Part shown: positions 41,885 to 48,846 of the stretch, piece after piece | Layout of the letters: each line of letters opens with the position of its first letter | Position numbering within the stretch: position 1 is the stretch's first letter | Assembly (NCBI RefSeq): GCF_000377645.1 | Contig: NZ_KB898476.1 | Coordinates: 1 to 64,000, forward strand | Source of the DNA: Thiomonas sp. FB-6 | GTDB lineage: Bacteria; Pseudomonadota; Gammaproteobacteria; Burkholderiales; Burkholderiaceae_C | Reading direction: 5' to 3' | DNA: 64,000 bases | Program-made: the position numbers and the translations under genes | Notes under the pieces: generated by a model | The model's input: the letters and a program-made list of their open reading frames with translations, nothing else | Database searches by the model: none | Told to the model about the DNA's origin: nothing

Positions 41885-42263
41885 GCGCCCCGCGCGGGCG
41901 GCCCGCCGGCCGCGGCGGGAGCCCGCGACGCAAGGGCCCTCGCGGCCCTTCGATCTGTCTCGCTCGGTTTGCCCCCGCCCGGGCCGGCATGAACTTCGCC
42001 GGAAATTATGGATTTTCTACGCGCATTCAGCGCTCAGGCGATTGAACCGGATTTTCAAAAAAGACCACAAAAAATATAGCCATTCCCTGAATATCGTTAT
42101 TTGAAGAATGCTCCCTTGAATATCGTCTTCTCGATAAACTGAGGCCGCAAACCGACGATTCACGGGCATGCCGCGGAATATTCATTCGAATACCCGCGCG
42201 CCCCGGCAATCCTCGATTCGCGACATTCATTCATCCAGCAGCACCGAACCCAAGGAGCGGAAA
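41885..42263. other. intergenic region with an AT-rich island ahead of the KGG stress gene
   Basis: I see no gene here. The first 100 bases are GC-rich. From about 42000 to 42250 the sequence is markedly AT-richer than its surroundings. It holds a 10-bp direct repeat, TGAATATCGT, at 42088-42097 and 42117-42126 (29 bp apart), and the symmetric stretch GGAATATTC at 42175-42183. These could be regulator sites for the stress gene that starts at 42264. No convincing sigma-70 pair was found. Confidence 0.5.
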
Positions 42264-42635
42264 ATGGCTGAACATACCCAGCAAGGCAACCAGGAAGCAT
42301 CCAAGCGAGGCTTCGCTTCGATGAGCGAGGAACAACAGCGCCAGATCGCCTCCAAGGGCGGCCAGGCTTCCGGCGGCAATTTCAAGAACGATCCCGAACG
42401 CGCGGCCGAAGCGGGTCACAAGGGCGGCCAGGTCTCCGGCGGAAATTTCAAGAACGATCCCGAGCGTGCGGCCGAGGCCGGCCACAAGGGCGGCCAGGTC
42501 TCCGGCGGCAATTTCAAGAACGACCCGGCACGCGCGGCTGAAGCCGGCCACAAGGGCGGCCAAGTCTCCGGCGGCAATTTCAAGAACGACCCGGAGCGCG
42601 CCGCGCAGGCCGGCCAGAAGGGCGGCCAGCACTGA
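42264..42635 (+). CDS. general stress protein with KGG repeats (GsiB/Con-10-like)
   Basis: This 123-residue hydrophilic protein is expected to be largely disordered. After a short start (EASKRGFASMSEEQQRQIAS) come four 22-residue repeats of the form KGGQVSGGNFKNDPERAAEAGH and a final KGGQH, the KGG domain found in bacterial GsiB and fungal Con-10. Family members are made in stationary phase, desiccation, osmotic or oxidative stress and may protect other proteins. The ATG at 42264 follows AAGGAG by 7 bases; a longer frame upstream has no ribosome site. An AT-rich region with a direct repeat upstream probably holds the promoter. Confidence 0.92.
   Translation: MAEHTQQGNQEASKRGFASMSEEQQRQIASKGGQASGGNFKNDPERAAEAGHKGGQVSGGNFKNDPERAAEAGHKGGQVSGGNFKNDPARAAEAGHKGGQVSGGNFKNDPERAAQAGQKGGQH
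42354..42617 (+). repeat. four in-frame 66-bp tandem repeats in the stress gene
   Basis: Four 66-bp units encode 22 residues each. Units differ mostly at synonymous positions; amino-acid changes are Ala/Val in position 5, Glu/Ala in position 15 and a diverged end of the fourth unit. Copy number may vary between strains by slippage or recombination. Confidence 0.92.
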
Positions 42636-43754: not shown

Positions 43755-45998
43755 CTAGCTGCGGGGGCGAGCGCCGCGCAGCAAATGTTCCAGCACGTCC
43801 CGCGCCAGCGGGCGGTGGAACCAGTAGCCCTGGGCTTCGTCGCAGCCCAGCTCGCGCAAACGCAGCATCGTGGCCTCGTCCTCGACGCCCTCGGCCACCA
43901 CGCGCAGTCCCAGCGCATGGGCCATCTGGATGACCGCGCTGACGATGGCGCTCGCGTCGTCGTCCTCGGTCAGTCCGAGCACGAAGCTGCGGTCCACCTT
44001 CAGCCGATCCACATCGAGGCGGCGCAGGTAGGCCAGGCTGGAATAGCCGGTCCCGAAATCGTCGATGGCGACGCGCAGGCCAGATTGCTTCAGCCCGGCC
44101 AGCACGGTGCGCATGCGCGCGGCGTCGTCCAGGAACACCGATTCGGTCAGTTCCACCTCGAACTGGCCCGCCTGCAAGCCATGCCGCGCGATGGCCTGCG
44201 CGAGCAGATGGGGAAAATCGCCCCGCCGCATCTGCACCACCGACACGTTCACGCTCAAGGGCAGCGTGCCCAAGCCCTGGTCGCGCCAGCGCGCGGCGTC
44301 GGCGCAGGCGCGTTCCACCACCCAGGCGCCCACGTCGACGATCAGTCCCGTCCGCTCCGCCACGCCAATGAACTGCCCCGGCGGCACCAGGCCGCGATCC
44401 GGGTCGCGCCAGCGCAGCAAGGCCTCGGCTCCGACCACCTCGCCGCTGCGCAGATCCACCTGCGGCTGGTAGTGCAACTCGAACTCCTGGCGCGACAAGG
44501 CACGCCGCAGGCCGCGCGCGATGCGGAAATGCTCGCGCGCGCGCTCGTTCGCGCCCGGCGTCGCGTAACGCACGATGTTCTTGCCGGCGGCCTTGGCCTC
44601 CTGCAGGGCCGCCGCGGCCTGGCCCAGCAGATCGTCGAAGTTCGCGGCGTCCTCGGGAAATTGGGCGATCCCCTGCGACAGGGTCAGTTCGACCGTCCTG
44701 CCGCCCAGGTCGAAGGCCCGGGCCGCCGTCTGCGCCATGCGCTCGCACAGCTCGGCGGCGGCGTCCAGCCCGCCCTCCTGCACGGTCAGGACCAGGAATT
44801 CGTCCGCGTTCCACCGGCACACCTTGTCGGCATCGCCCACGCAGGCCTGCAGTCGCGAAGCCCATTCGTGCAGCACCTGGTCCCCGGCCCCGAGCCCGAA
44901 GCTTTCGTTCACGCTGCGGAAATCGTCGATGTTCAGGCAGACCAGGCCGAACTTCGTGCCGCTTTCGAGCAGGCTCTCGCAACGCGTGCGGAACAGGCGC
45001 CGGTTGGGCAGGCCGGTCAGGGCGTCGTGGCTGGACAGATGCTGGATCGCGTTCTCGGCCGCCCTGGCCTGGCTGAGGTCGTTGTACACCCCGAGGTAGT
45101 TGCTGACGCTTCCATCGGCGCCATGGATGGCCTTGATGGACAGCCACTCGGGGTAGACCTCACCGCTGCGGCGCCGGTTCCAGACCTCGCCGCTCCAGGC
45201 TCCGCTGTCGCGCAGCGCAGCCCACAGCGCCGCGTGGAATTCGGGCCCGTGCATGCCGGAGGCGAACAGGCGCGGAGTCTGCCCCAGCAGTTCCTCGCGC
45301 GCGTAACCCAGGCTGCGGCACATGCTCGGGTTCGCCTCGACGATGCGGGCCTGGGCATCGGTGACCAGCATGCCCTCCTCGGCCGAGTCGAAGGCTCGCC
45401 CGTACCGGCGCAGGCTGTCCTGCCAGCGGGCATGCGACAGCACGATGCCCACCAGGCTGGCGCCGGTTTCCAGCAATTTGCGGTGAAAGTGTCCGGGCGC
45501 GCGCGGCTCGAAACTGGACAGCGCGAAGGTCCCCACCACCTGCCCGGCGTCGTCGTACACCGGCACCGACCAGCAGGCGCAGAGGTTGAAGTCGTAGGCG
45601 ACCTGGCGCAGGTCGGTCCAGCGTGGGTCGCTGAAGGTATTGCTGACGAACTGCGGAGTGCCCCGGTAGATCACGTTGCCGCAGGAGCCTCCGCCGGGGC
45701 CGGGCTGCAGGCCGTTCAGGCGGCACACCGCGGCGTCGGGCACGCTGGGCGAGGCATGCACGTAGAGCTTGCCGTCCTCCGGATTGAGCAGCATGACCGT
45801 GCCCACCGCGTTGGGCAGCAGCATTTCCGCCAGATGGCAGACCTCGCGAACCATGCCCAGCGAGTCCCGGCCCCGCAGCACCGCGCGCAGGATCGACTGC
45901 TGGTACTCCAGAATGGCCTGCTGCTCGCGCGGGTCGAGCAGGATCTCCTCGTCGGCCGGCTCGGCATCCTCGGGTCGCGCCAGGCGCAGGGGCATCAT
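43755..45998 (-). CDS. GAF-PAS-GGDEF-EAL protein, probable c-di-GMP phosphodiesterase
   Basis: This 747-residue cytoplasmic signalling protein has an N-terminal GAF domain (about residues 45-190; LLPNAVGTVMLLNPEDGKLYVHASPSVPD, GSCGNVIYRGTPQFVSNTFSDPRW), a PAS domain (about 205-320; DSAEEGMLVTDAQARIVEANPSMCRSLGY), a GGDEF domain (SSHDALTGLPNRRLF) whose active site is degenerate (WNADEFLVL in place of GGDEF), and an intact EAL domain (GAEALLRWRDP, VELTESVFLDD, IDDFGTGYSSLAYLRRLDVDRLKVDRSFV, VVAEGVEDE). It should therefore hydrolyse c-di-GMP, with the pseudo-cyclase domain perhaps binding GTP. A divergent AT-rich region of about 260 bp lies upstream. Confidence 0.92.
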   Translation of the reverse strand: MMPLRLARPEDAEPADEEILLDPREQQAILEYQQSILRAVLRGRDSLGMVREVCHLAEMLLPNAVGTVMLLNPEDGKLYVHASPSVPDAAVCRLNGLQPGPGGGSCGNVIYRGTPQFVSNTFSDPRWTDLRQVAYDFNLCACWSVPVYDDAGQVVGTFALSSFEPRAPGHFHRKLLETGASLVGIVLSHARWQDSLRRYGRAFDSAEEGMLVTDAQARIVEANPSMCRSLGYAREELLGQTPRLFASGMHGPEFHAALWAALRDSGAWSGEVWNRRRSGEVYPEWLSIKAIHGADGSVSNYLGVYNDLSQARAAENAIQHLSSHDALTGLPNRRLFRTRCESLLESGTKFGLVCLNIDDFRSVNESFGLGAGDQVLHEWASRLQACVGDADKVCRWNADEFLVLTVQEGGLDAAAELCERMAQTAARAFDLGGRTVELTLSQGIAQFPEDAANFDDLLGQAAAALQEAKAAGKNIVRYATPGANERAREHFRIARGLRRALSRQEFELHYQPQVDLRSGEVVGAEALLRWRDPDRGLVPPGQFIGVAERTGLIVDVGAWVVERACADAARWRDQGLGTLPLSVNVSVVQMRRGDFPHLLAQAIARHGLQAGQFEVELTESVFLDDAARMRTVLAGLKQSGLRVAIDDFGTGYSSLAYLRRLDVDRLKVDRSFVLGLTEDDDASAIVSAVIQMAHALGLRVVAEGVEDEATMLRLRELGCDEAQGYWFHRPLARDVLEHLLRGARPRS

Positions 45999-46182: not shown

Positions 46183-46226
46183 CCGTGAAATAGTTGCGCG
46201 CCCGCCGAGCGGCCCGCCCCTAGCAT
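46183..46226 (+). promoter_or_regulatory. CCGTGAAATAGTTG-N22-CCTAGCAT element ahead of small gene A
   Basis: CCGTGAAATAGTTG (46183-46196) is followed after exactly 22 bases by CCTAGCAT (46219-46226), 30 bp before the ATG. The same block with the same spacing precedes the paralogous gene at 47.7 kb, while the 22-base spacers are unrelated. It looks like a two-part promoter or an activator site plus -10 region, but fits no sigma-factor consensus I know. Confidence 0.65.
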
Positions 46227-46256
46227 TCGGTCACGAAGCTGGATACGGAGCTGTTC

Positions 46257-46637
46257 ATGAGACTCATCGATTGGGAAGGCGCGGAGGATGGCGCCGCGCA
46301 GGCGATGTCGGTACTGGGTGTGCCGGCGCCGTCCGGCGCGGGCATCGAGTTCAGCGCCCGCGGAACCGCCCATCCCGTCTATTGCTCCGTCTACCTGGGT
46401 CACGAGGACAAGCAGGCCATCGACGCCAAGGTGCGCCTGCTCGACGGCGCGGGCCCGACCATCACCACCACCGAGCCCACGCTGCGCGACGGCGACGTGG
46501 TCTACGTGGTCACGCGCGGCCAGCGCAGGCCGCATCGCATCCTGAACCTGCGCCGCGGAGGCCGTGCGCGCGACAGCGGCGACCTGCGCATCGGCGAGCT
46601 CGAGGAACTCGAGCCACGCGAGGTATTCGCGTCCTGA
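46257..46637 (+). CDS. orphan small protein A, paralogue of the protein at 47737
   Basis: I do not recognise a family. The 126-residue cytoplasmic protein has no signal peptide. The C-terminal half, TEPTLRDGDVVYVVTRGQRRPHRILNLRRG followed by ARDSGDLRIGELEEL, aligns with the protein at 47737 (EPRLRDGDVIHVDGAGGRKAHRISGMRHG ... SRDPQDLRIAQLSAI), so the two genes are paralogues. The part before it (VYCSVYLGHEDKQAIDAKVRLLDG) is weakly similar too (AAYLGASDREALRARVKPSM). ATG 46257 is preceded by GGAG. Both genes share the upstream CCGTGAAATAGTTG element, which suggests a common regulator. Confidence 0.7.
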   Translation: MRLIDWEGAEDGAAQAMSVLGVPAPSGAGIEFSARGTAHPVYCSVYLGHEDKQAIDAKVRLLDGAGPTITTTEPTLRDGDVVYVVTRGQRRPHRILNLRRGGRARDSGDLRIGELEELEPREVFAS

Positions 46638-46668
46638 GCGCCCCCAGGGGCGGGGCCGGCCCGCGGCC

Positions 46669-47520
46669 TCAGCGCCGCGCCTGGGCGGCCAGGGCCAGCG
46701 CCTCGGCCAGCAGGGCCCCTTCGCTGTCTTCGAGTTGCGCGAGGATGCTCATGTGGTTCGCCTGCGCGATCTCCAGCAGGCGCACGGGTTCCCCGGCGCC
46801 GCGCAAGGCGTCGAAATATTCCCGGCTTTGACGCCGCAGTTCCGCCAGTTCGGCGCCGCCCGCGGCCAGCACCGTCGCCACGCCCTTTCCCACCCGCGAC
46901 TGCGGGCTGCATGCTCCGACCTGCGCCGCGTCCAGGCCCAGCGCGTCGTTGAGCGCGCCGCGCCGGATCGGCTCCAGGTCGAACAGACCGCTGATGGCCA
47001 GCACCCCGGCCACCGCGGCGTGCGCGCGGTGCATCGCCGCCAGGTGTCCACCCGCGGAGTGTCCGCTCAGCACGATGCGCGGGCCGCGCCCCCCGCCGGC
47101 GCCCAGCACCGGGTGCTTCCACAGCGCATCCAGCAGCATGCCCATCTCCGCGACCATGTCCGGCACCCGCGCCTGCGGGGCCAGCGTGTACTCGGCCATG
47201 ACCACGTGCAGCCCGGCGGCCAGCGCACCCGCGCCCACGCAACAGAAATCACGCTTGTCGCGGGCCTGCCAGTAGCCGCCGTGGATGAACACCAGCACCG
47301 GCGCCACCGCCGCATCCGCGCCGCGGGCCGGGTACCAGTCGTAGACCTGGCGGGCGCCGGGACCGTAGGCCGTGTCGGGCACGCAGTCATGCGCGGCGTG
47401 AAAGGCCAGGCTGCGCCCGCGCAGGGCCGCCACCACCGCGCCGGCATCGGCGATGACCGCCAGGTTGTCGTAGGCGGCGGTGAACTGTTCGCGGGTCTGG
47501 AGTTCGGCGGGAATCGGCAT
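46669..47520 (-). CDS. alpha/beta hydrolase, kynurenine-formamidase-like (BD-FAE)
   Basis: This 283-residue serine hydrolase has an oxyanion motif HGGYWQARDKRDF (about residue 80), a nucleophile elbow SGHSAGGHLAAM (about 145) and a late His in QANHMSILAQLED. The HGGYW-x(n)-GHSAGG combination is that of bacterial BD-FAE esterases and arylformamidases. It lies between the two paralogous small genes, on the opposite strand, and is convergent with the first. The substrate is not clear, and no other kynurenine pathway gene is in the window. ATG 47520 gives a typical MPIPAELQTREQFTAAYDN opening. Confidence 0.83.
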   Translation of the reverse strand: MPIPAELQTREQFTAAYDNLAVIADAGAVVAALRGRSLAFHAAHDCVPDTAYGPGARQVYDWYPARGADAAVAPVLVFIHGGYWQARDKRDFCCVGAGALAAGLHVVMAEYTLAPQARVPDMVAEMGMLLDALWKHPVLGAGGGRGPRIVLSGHSAGGHLAAMHRAHAAVAGVLAISGLFDLEPIRRGALNDALGLDAAQVGACSPQSRVGKGVATVLAAGGAELAELRRQSREYFDALRGAGEPVRLLEIAQANHMSILAQLEDSEGALLAEALALAAQARR

Positions 47521-47611
47521 GGCGGCCTTCGGGCTTTCGGGTTGGGGCGGTCCTGATCCGGGTGCGCAGCTTAGGGCATGCCAAGGCCCGCCGACTCGAA
47601 ACCCCGAGCGA

Positions 47612-47697
47612 CCGTGAAATAGTTGCATGTTCCACGGCGCCGAGGCGGCTTCACCGTGAAATAGTTGGTCGCACCCCGGATCGGGCCTTCCTAGGAT
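47612..47697 (+). promoter_or_regulatory. double CCGTGAAATAGTTG element and CCTAGGAT ahead of small gene B
   Basis: Two identical 14-bp copies lie at 47612-47625 and 47654-47667, 42 bp apart (four helical turns). The second copy is followed after exactly 22 bases by CCTAGGAT (47690-47697), as in front of gene A; the first copy has no CCTAG partner. This favours the 14-mer being a protein-binding site rather than only a -35 box. Confidence 0.68.
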
Positions 47698-47736
47698 GGA
47701 CTCATGGATCCACGACGCGGGATCCCGGGGGGCATC

Positions 47737-48099
47737 ATGACGCGAAGCGAAGCGCAGGACACGAAGGACGGACGGCCGTGGAACCTCGGGGCGGGAGCCG
47801 TGTGGACGCCGGAGGCTCCCGAGGCGGATGCCGGCGAGCGCGCCGAGGACCTTCAGCCGCATCTGGCGGCCTACCTGGGCGCCTCCGATCGCGAGGCGCT
47901 GCGCGCGCGGGTCAAGCCGTCCATGACCGGCAGGCTCACGCTGGTCACGGTCGAGCCCCGGCTGCGCGACGGCGACGTGATCCACGTGGACGGCGCGGGC
48001 GGGCGCAAGGCGCACCGCATCTCCGGCATGCGCCACGGGCTGCGCTCGCGCGACCCGCAGGATCTGCGCATCGCGCAACTGAGCGCAATCCCTGATTGA
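47737..48099 (+). CDS. orphan small protein B, paralogue of the protein at 46257
   Basis: I do not recognise a family. The cytoplasmic protein has about 120 residues, with a C-terminal block VEPRLRDGDVIHVDGAGGRKAHRISGMRHGLRSRDPQDLRIAQL that matches gene A. The N-terminal 40 residues (acidic, WNLGAGAVWTPEAPEADAGE) differ. The frame opens at ATG 47704, but that codon is only 6 bases behind the CCTAGGAT box; ATG 47737 has GGGGGGC ahead of it and a leader length like that of gene A, so I chose it. DGDV and HRI suggest a small beta-rich fold, but I make no functional claim. Confidence 0.68.
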   Translation: MTRSEAQDTKDGRPWNLGAGAVWTPEAPEADAGERAEDLQPHLAAYLGASDREALRARVKPSMTGRLTLVTVEPRLRDGDVIHVDGAGGRKAHRISGMRHGLRSRDPQDLRIAQLSAIPD

Positions 48100-48189
48100 G
48101 GGCTCATCCCCCGACGGGAGCCTCTGCAATCCCGCGCGCGACGCGCGACAATGATCCCGGTGCGCATTCCGCGCCACGGAGATCCCCGA

Positions 48190-48846
48190 GTGCCTTCGGC
48201 AACCCGAGCCCTGCAAACCCCTTCCGAGGAAGTCGCCAACAGTCTCACCCACGCCCTGGGCGCGGCGCTGGCCGTGGCTGCCATTCCGTTGCTGGTGCTG
48301 CATGCGCGAGGCGCCGGGGCGGTCACCGGGGCGGCCATTTTCGGCGCCAGCGCGGTGCTGTCCTACCTGGTCTCCACGCTGTACCACGCGTTGCGCGAGG
48401 GGCGCGCCAAGGCGGTGCTGCGCTGGATCGACCACGTGGCGATCTACGTGTTCATCGCCGGCACCTACACCCCCTTCACGCTGACCGTGTTGCGCGGCGC
48501 CTGGGGCTGGTCGCTGTTCGGCCTGGTGTGGGGCCTGGCGCTGCTGGGGCTGCTGTTCAAGACCCTGGGCACCGAGCGCTTTCCCCGGCTGTCCACCTGG
48601 CTCTACCTGGCCATGGGCTGGGTCGCGCTGGTGGCTATCCGCCCCTTGTGGCTGGCCATGCCCGGCAGCGCCATGCTGTGGCTGCTGGCCGGCGGTGCGG
48701 CCTATTCGCTGGGGGTGATCTTTTTCGTGCTCGACCAGCGCCTGCGCTATGCCCACAGCGTGTGGCACCTGTTCGTGCTGGCCGGCAGCGTGTGCCACTT
48801 CTTCGCGCTGCTCGACGTGCTCGACGTGCAAGCGCTGCTGCGCTGA
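48190..48846 (+). CDS. hemolysin III family membrane protein (YqfA/PAQR-like)
   Basis: This 218-residue integral membrane protein should have seven helices. HlyIII/PAQR signatures are the N-terminal EEVANSLTHALGAALA, SAVLSYLVSTLYHAL (His), WIDHVAIYVFIAGTYTPF (Asp-His) and the C-terminal YAHSVWHLFVLAGSVCHFFAL (His-x3-His-like metal site). Despite the name most members are not hemolysins; the conserved His/Asp site resembles zinc-dependent PAQR hydrolases. I chose GTG 48190 because of CGGAG nine bases upstream; ATG 48151 is in frame but lacks a ribosome site. Confidence 0.88.
   Translation: MPSATRALQTPSEEVANSLTHALGAALAVAAIPLLVLHARGAGAVTGAAIFGASAVLSYLVSTLYHALREGRAKAVLRWIDHVAIYVFIAGTYTPFTLTVLRGAWGWSLFGLVWGLALLGLLFKTLGTERFPRLSTWLYLAMGWVALVAIRPLWLAMPGSAMLWLLAGGAAYSLGVIFFVLDQRLRYAHSVWHLFVLAGSVCHFFALLDVLDVQALLR

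Follow-up and report, generated by a model that had tools for sequence, protein, structure and literature searches.

A conserved promoter element, probably of the class II activator-dependent type, precedes orphan small-protein genes of a Thiomonas-like genus, mostly near c-di-GMP signalling genes

Two paralogous genes of an orphan family, A and B, lie close together in the 64,000-nucleotide stretch of Thiomonas sp. FB-6 DNA analysed here (the window), and each is preceded by the same 14-mer, CCGTGAAATAGTTG, and, after a gap of exactly 22 bp, by a box of the form CCTAGNAT (CCTAGCAT before A and CCTAGGAT before B). What reads this element, and what does it control? We propose that it is probably a class II, activator-dependent promoter, served by a housekeeping-type RNA polymerase, of a small-protein regulon linked to c-di-GMP. 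The initial annotation had described three identical copies of the 14-mer, two of them followed by CCTAG(C/G)AT after 22 bp, and had placed the extra copy exactly 42 bp upstream of the one nearest to gene B; this description was borne out, with exact coordinates (Table 1). No fourth exact copy was found in the window, for which an order-1 model of its sequence predicts 3.4e-5 exact copies; at up to three mismatches there are six matches, against a mean of 1.34 in shuffled sequences. The expectation that more copies exist elsewhere in the genome was also correct: the FB-6 genome (4.2 Mb in 79 contigs) contains four exact 14-mers and three complete elements, and no complete element beyond these three at up to three mismatches. 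The third is on the same contig at position 132073, 84 kb from the window pair, upstream of a gene for a 78-aa protein that is followed by a GAF-PAS-GGDEF-EAL gene. When 142.9 of the contig's 157.6 kb were scanned with a weight matrix built from the relatives only, the three FB-6 elements scored 55-60 bits, and all other positions, like the reversed sequence, scored no more than 8 bits. The third element is flanked on its other side, beyond infA (named by eye), by a gene for a protoglobin-GAF-EAL sensor that runs in the opposite direction (L008:5995-8043, minus strand).

Table 1. Coordinates of the genes and element copies at the A/B locus of the window
Feature	Position	Strand	Remarks
GAF-PAS-GGDEF-EAL gene	43755..45998	-	Pfam; divergent from gene A, start 185 bp from the element
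Element copy 5' of gene A: CCGTGAAATAGTTG (46183-46196) plus conserved GC 4 bp on	46183..46201	+	Proposed activator site; logo of 33 promoters
CCTAGCAT, proposed -10 box (TAGCAT) of gene A	46219..46226	+	Putative transcription start at 46233 (base A)
Gene A, 126 aa, orphan family	46257..46637	+	N-terminus predicted as disordered; small beta-barrel predicted
Alpha/beta hydrolase gene between A and B	46669..47520	-	Pfam Abhydrolase_3; context, not a claimed target
Distal (extra) copy, 42 bp 5' of the proximal copy, without its own -10	47612..47625	+	Eight genomes have an exact copy at this spacing (42-43 bp)
Proximal copy 5' of gene B (14-mer 47654-47667), with conserved GC	47654..47672	+	Proposed activator site
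CCTAGGAT, proposed -10 box of gene B	47690..47697	+	Putative transcription start at 47704 (base A)
Gene B, paralogue of A, 120 aa with the start favoured here, 131 aa with ATG 47704	47737..48099	+	
Haemolysin-III-related (HlyIII) gene 3' of B	48151..48846	+	Pfam HlyIII; context

Proteins A and B had been described as paralogues, and they share 43% identity over 77 aa (BLASTP E 8e-19). For gene B, ATG 47737 is more likely to be the start codon than ATG 47704, because the latter coincides with the putative transcription start and because the orthologues start at the equivalent of 47737. Beside the A/B locus, positions 42138-42632 of the forward strand encode a small protein with KGGQASGGNF-type repeats, also present at two other loci (L095 and L099), which we take to resemble the stress-induced KGG proteins.

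The association of element and gene extends across the genus. With up to three mismatches, the element is matched 38 times, in 17 of the 28 genomes of the genus (FB-6 included), and the reversed pattern once. The least circular of our tests is the protein-first search, in which the genus was searched with protein B alone: it returned 40 rows, 21 of them strong (E below 1e-12), and 20 of these 21 homologues, in whose retrieval the element played no part, carry it upstream at an unchanged spacing and with at most three mismatches. Absence of the element from relatives that keep the genes had been named as the observation that would speak against a regulatory link; this check came out in favour of the link, the sole strong homologue without the element being an FB-6 paralogue (C19:39399-39668, minus strand, locus L075; E 8e-14 to B), in whose upstream region the best 42-mer has nine mismatches. 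Among the 19 weaker rows, two (G153 and G163) have the element, two homologues in G155 do not, and for 12 others the motif scan covered some of the loci. The remaining three, in G154, G156 and G164 (L104, L105 and L106), keep GTGAAATA(G/T)TG and have a diverged -10-like box, similar to GGTTACAAG, with an ATG only 9 nt after it. This leaves little room for a leader and is poorly explained by the class II model; leaderless transcripts or a changed promoter type are possible in these genomes. A very weak family match in FB-6 (C17:5493-5663, L076; E 0.048) has no element and lies about 0.3 kb downstream of the EAL domain (C17:4451-5158) of a GGDEF-EAL gene.

In a collection of named genomes, the exact pattern was found in 16 stretches, of which 15 come from this Thiomonas-like group and duplicate several of the genomes already sampled; the sixteenth (L109, labelled Bacteroidetes) looks like a chance match. 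The exact pattern is absent from the other 149 genomes in the sample of the family, one of which is of the same genus and 148 of other genera, no exact element was found in viral contigs, and protein A has no match at E 0.01 among plasmids and phages. A profile of the protein family, with no more than 12 candidates per genome scored, matched in four of 349 genomes of the bacterial family, all four of this genus. The regulon was found in one Thiomonas-like genus. The titles and abstract openings listed for literature on Thiomonas c-di-GMP, promoters or regulons, in a search that covered few subscription papers, contain no description of the element, and the string GTGAAATAGTT gave unrelated literature matches only.

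The anatomy of the element was derived from a logo of 33 of the 38 matches, after removal of two extra copies without a -10, two matches judged spurious (L102 and L083) and one upstream of an HDOD-like gene (L092); the rows are related by descent and form 21 spacer clusters. Identity is 0.97 in the core, 0.85 in the -10 box and 0.33-0.36 in the spacer and flanks, where the conservation of core and -10 is partly built in because the rows were chosen by these two blocks. Several positions outside the selection are conserved as well: a C directly before GTGAAA in all 33 rows, G at -33 in 31, C at -32 in 29, C at -1 in 31, A or G at +1 in 26, and A at -61 in 22. The TA..(A)T of the -10 is constant, and no -35 hexamer is apparent at the expected place. 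The C/A start signature stands 7 nt after TAGNAT, where the housekeeping polymerase would start, and its position gives the putative starts of A and B listed in Table 1. If TAGNAT is the -10 and the purine 7 nt on is +1, the core extends from about -48 to -32, and the proposed activator site CGTGAAATAGTTGSRCGC from about -49 to -32, with its centre at about -41. With the start so deduced, the position of the site agrees with that of a class II site, centred near -41.5 and overlapping the -35 region, and the promoters combine a usable -10 with a poor or missing -35, as class II promoters do. The best dyad, CGTG-N-AA-N3-TT-N-CRCG, is centred on the A of TAG at about -41; with five of its eight pairs present in the consensus and one more pair in 12 of the 33 rows, it is weak and suggestive only. 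The alpha subunit of the polymerase could make a contact with the A-rich DNA at about -64 to -61.

The extra copies provide the main argument against a sigma factor. The exact string GTGAAATAGTT occurs 53 times in the 28 genomes, compared with 13 times when read backwards. By our classification, 30 of the 53 copies have a TA-containing box at the 22-bp spacing, and eight are extra copies that have no -10 of their own and lie upstream of a boxed copy, at 42 bp in six genomes and at 43 bp in two; a ninth extra copy, with one change, is present in G165. Among the other 15 are eight copies from eight genus genomes (L126, L127, L134, L142, L146, L150, L154 and L155) whose flanks are closely similar; for this reason they look like one conserved coding sequence, in which they probably sit, rather than elements. 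Because the extra copies lack a -10, we favour an activator site over the upstream box of an alternative sigma factor.

On this model, the hexamer TAGNAT within CCTAGNAT would serve as the -10 of a promoter without a recognisable -35, and a putative, possibly dimeric activator would bind CGTGAAATAGTTGSRCGC and keep the polymerase on the promoter, substituting for the -35 contact. At gene B, a second activator unit would occupy the distal copy, four helical turns upstream. Class II activators are described, in the parts of two reports available to us, as centred around -41.5, overlapping the -35 and able to compensate for its absence (PMC2859248, PMC8561392), and it is for this position and this ability that we favour one here. 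The regulon would drive one orphan small-protein family and, in some species, an HDOD-type protein.

The alternatives explain parts of these observations. The initial annotation had suggested that either a dedicated regulator or an alternative sigma factor controls a small protein family; the regulator branch fits, and the sigma branch is disfavoured. A dedicated sigma factor with GTGAAATAGTTG for its upstream box and CCTAG for its -10 would account for two strictly conserved blocks at a single spacing, and also for a CCTAG that varies less than -10 boxes usually do, its fifth position being G in 31 of 33 rows. However, the two blocks are 22 bp apart in the 30 exact boxed copies, a spacing that does not suit this reading: the -35 and -10 boxes of alternative sigma promoters are about 15-20 bp apart, and 22 bp exceeds every sigma-factor spacing known to us. 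Moreover, the upstream box is not always paired with a -10, as all eight exact extra copies stand without one and yet keep the 42-43-bp phase, and the T-12, A-11, T-7 and C/A start signature is housekeeping-like; therefore we consider such a sigma factor unlikely. The same strict conservation, together with the overlap with the -35 region, would also be expected of a repressor operator that blocks an otherwise active promoter. As no -35 hexamer is apparent, a promoter active without aid is unlikely, and a distal site at four turns suits cooperative activation as well as looping; a repressor is accordingly an improbable reading of the core.

A and B are paralogues and the three FB-6 elements share one contig, as a recent duplication of promoter and gene without a common regulator would leave them. 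Nevertheless, the spacers and flanks have diverged to the low identity given above while the core has been kept, and HDOD-type genes carry the element too, which makes this explanation very unlikely. A function of the element in RNA, as a leader or attenuator, would draw on the three diverged genomes in which the start codon follows the -10-like box by 9 nt, and where a transcription start upstream of the core is conceivable. It is hardly credible for the element at large, given that the core precedes the start signature by 48 nt and that the extra copies recur at 42-43 bp, as phasing on DNA predicts.

The activator model has parallels among known systems. As far as the accessible parts of the published descriptions go, the promoter resembles class II promoters (the CRP/FNR type, and IscR at ydiU) in a site over the -35 region with its centre near -41, a usable -10 and no good -35. 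It differs from them in its 11-bp core, which is asymmetric, hardly varies and is presumably not a CRP or FNR consensus. The site also resembles those of AraC/XylS-type activators, which are asymmetric, about 17 bp long, located at about -48 to -32 and repeated, without a change of orientation, at whole helical turns. Neither an AraC-type gene nor any other candidate for the activator proved to be linked to the element at the loci inspected. The one regulator gene considered as a candidate, a response regulator near the third-type locus (described below) in L085 and in L090/L113 (two genomes), was set aside, as it has no other match at E 1e-5 among the examined loci of at least 4 kb.

The genes downstream of the element form one orphan family with several shapes. 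Besides A and B (about 119-128 aa), there is a short third type of 78-85 aa with EDSSELDPRAPGVW, a type of 100 aa and, in G162, what looks like a fusion of a short-type N-terminus with an A/B-like C-terminus. This G162 form, together with weak pairwise similarity (E 0.008 and 0.003 when each pair is compared singly), is why the short type is counted in the family. The targets would not be this family alone, since the element, with three mismatches, also precedes an HDOD-type gene in three of the 28 genomes: G163 (by Pfam HDOD), G153 (85% identical to that of G163) and G172 (similar by eye only). Among 12 HDOD matches in 11 genomes, two have the element with three mismatches, six have none, and four have degraded forms with five or six mismatches shortly upstream, which are weak evidence because one chance match with six mismatches was also seen.

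The fold of these proteins is possibly PilZ-like, a suggestion that the models make weakly for A and less so for B. PilZ domains form a six-stranded barrel. In AlphaFold models of A and B, built with 15 sequences, a small beta-barrel is predicted besides an N-terminus without order (mean pLDDT 70 and 72). In Foldseek searches with model A, ranks 1 to 9 contain PilZ (E 0.02-0.43, best TM 0.42), among them a cellulose synthase that we take to include this domain; with model B, PilZ is present in three of the top ten, a phage connector ranks first and the others include serine proteases, and no match of either model reaches E 0.001. A weak resemblance to PilZ-domain proteins lies in the Foldseek matches of model A and in a c-di-GMP gene neighbourhood; A and B differ from such proteins in giving no Pfam match and no significant profile match and in lacking the canonical binding motifs. 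Neither protein matches Pfam or NCBIfam (PilZ, PF07238, included, at E up to 10). None of 15 family members matches PF07238 at E up to 1, and the Pfam scan of these members gave two isolated weak matches, both to unrelated families (E 0.13 and 0.15). Among solved structures, a search by sequence returned nothing significant (best E 0.8). A profile comparison with PilZ, using 28 of 32 PilZ loci, was not significant and had no power, because the positive control, in which two groups of true PilZ domains were compared, failed as well. The c-di-GMP motifs of PilZ are RxxxR and then [DN]xSxxG; this pair was absent by eye from the alignment of 15 sequences, in which R90-R94 is RxxxR-like and stands late in the barrel without a following [DN]xSxxG.

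The neighbourhood points to a link between the targets of the element and c-di-GMP signalling. By our count, 19 of the 27 element regions (related by descent, with two spurious regions left out) have a GGDEF or EAL gene no more than about 3 kb away, and 14 have an EAL gene. By a hand estimate for EAL only, based on the 37 EAL domains in the 4.2 Mb of the FB-6 genome, a gene of this kind would be that near by chance at about 7% of places. The distinct loci comprise A/B, a third-type gene beside a GGDEF-EAL gene, another third-type gene in G153 and G163, the G162 locus and the HDOD loci. Eight regions have no GGDEF or EAL gene nearby; two of them (G150 and G159) are about 2 kb from a canonical PilZ gene. 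The available part of a report on a Thiomonas genome describes an island rich in GGDEF/EAL proteins (PMC2829063). Because the targets mostly adjoin GGDEF/EAL genes, the likely role of the regulon would be to adjust the amounts of small proteins acting in c-di-GMP pathways.

In summary, the motif marks out a clean regulon that spans the genus and whose activator and promoter geometry can be tested, and it ties orphan small proteins of Thiomonas-like bacteria to a c-di-GMP neighbourhood. With 37 EAL domains in one genome, it raises, in our view, the question of how each enzyme acquires its partners. A more speculative reading, which we regard as possible though rather doubtful, is that a genus-specific transcription factor, perhaps c-di-GMP-responsive, acts through the near-invariant class II site to steer lineage-born, divergent PilZ-fold adaptors, each of which serves a neighbouring GGDEF/EAL enzyme. 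If so, such adaptors would be a private wiring layer in this EAL-rich genome.
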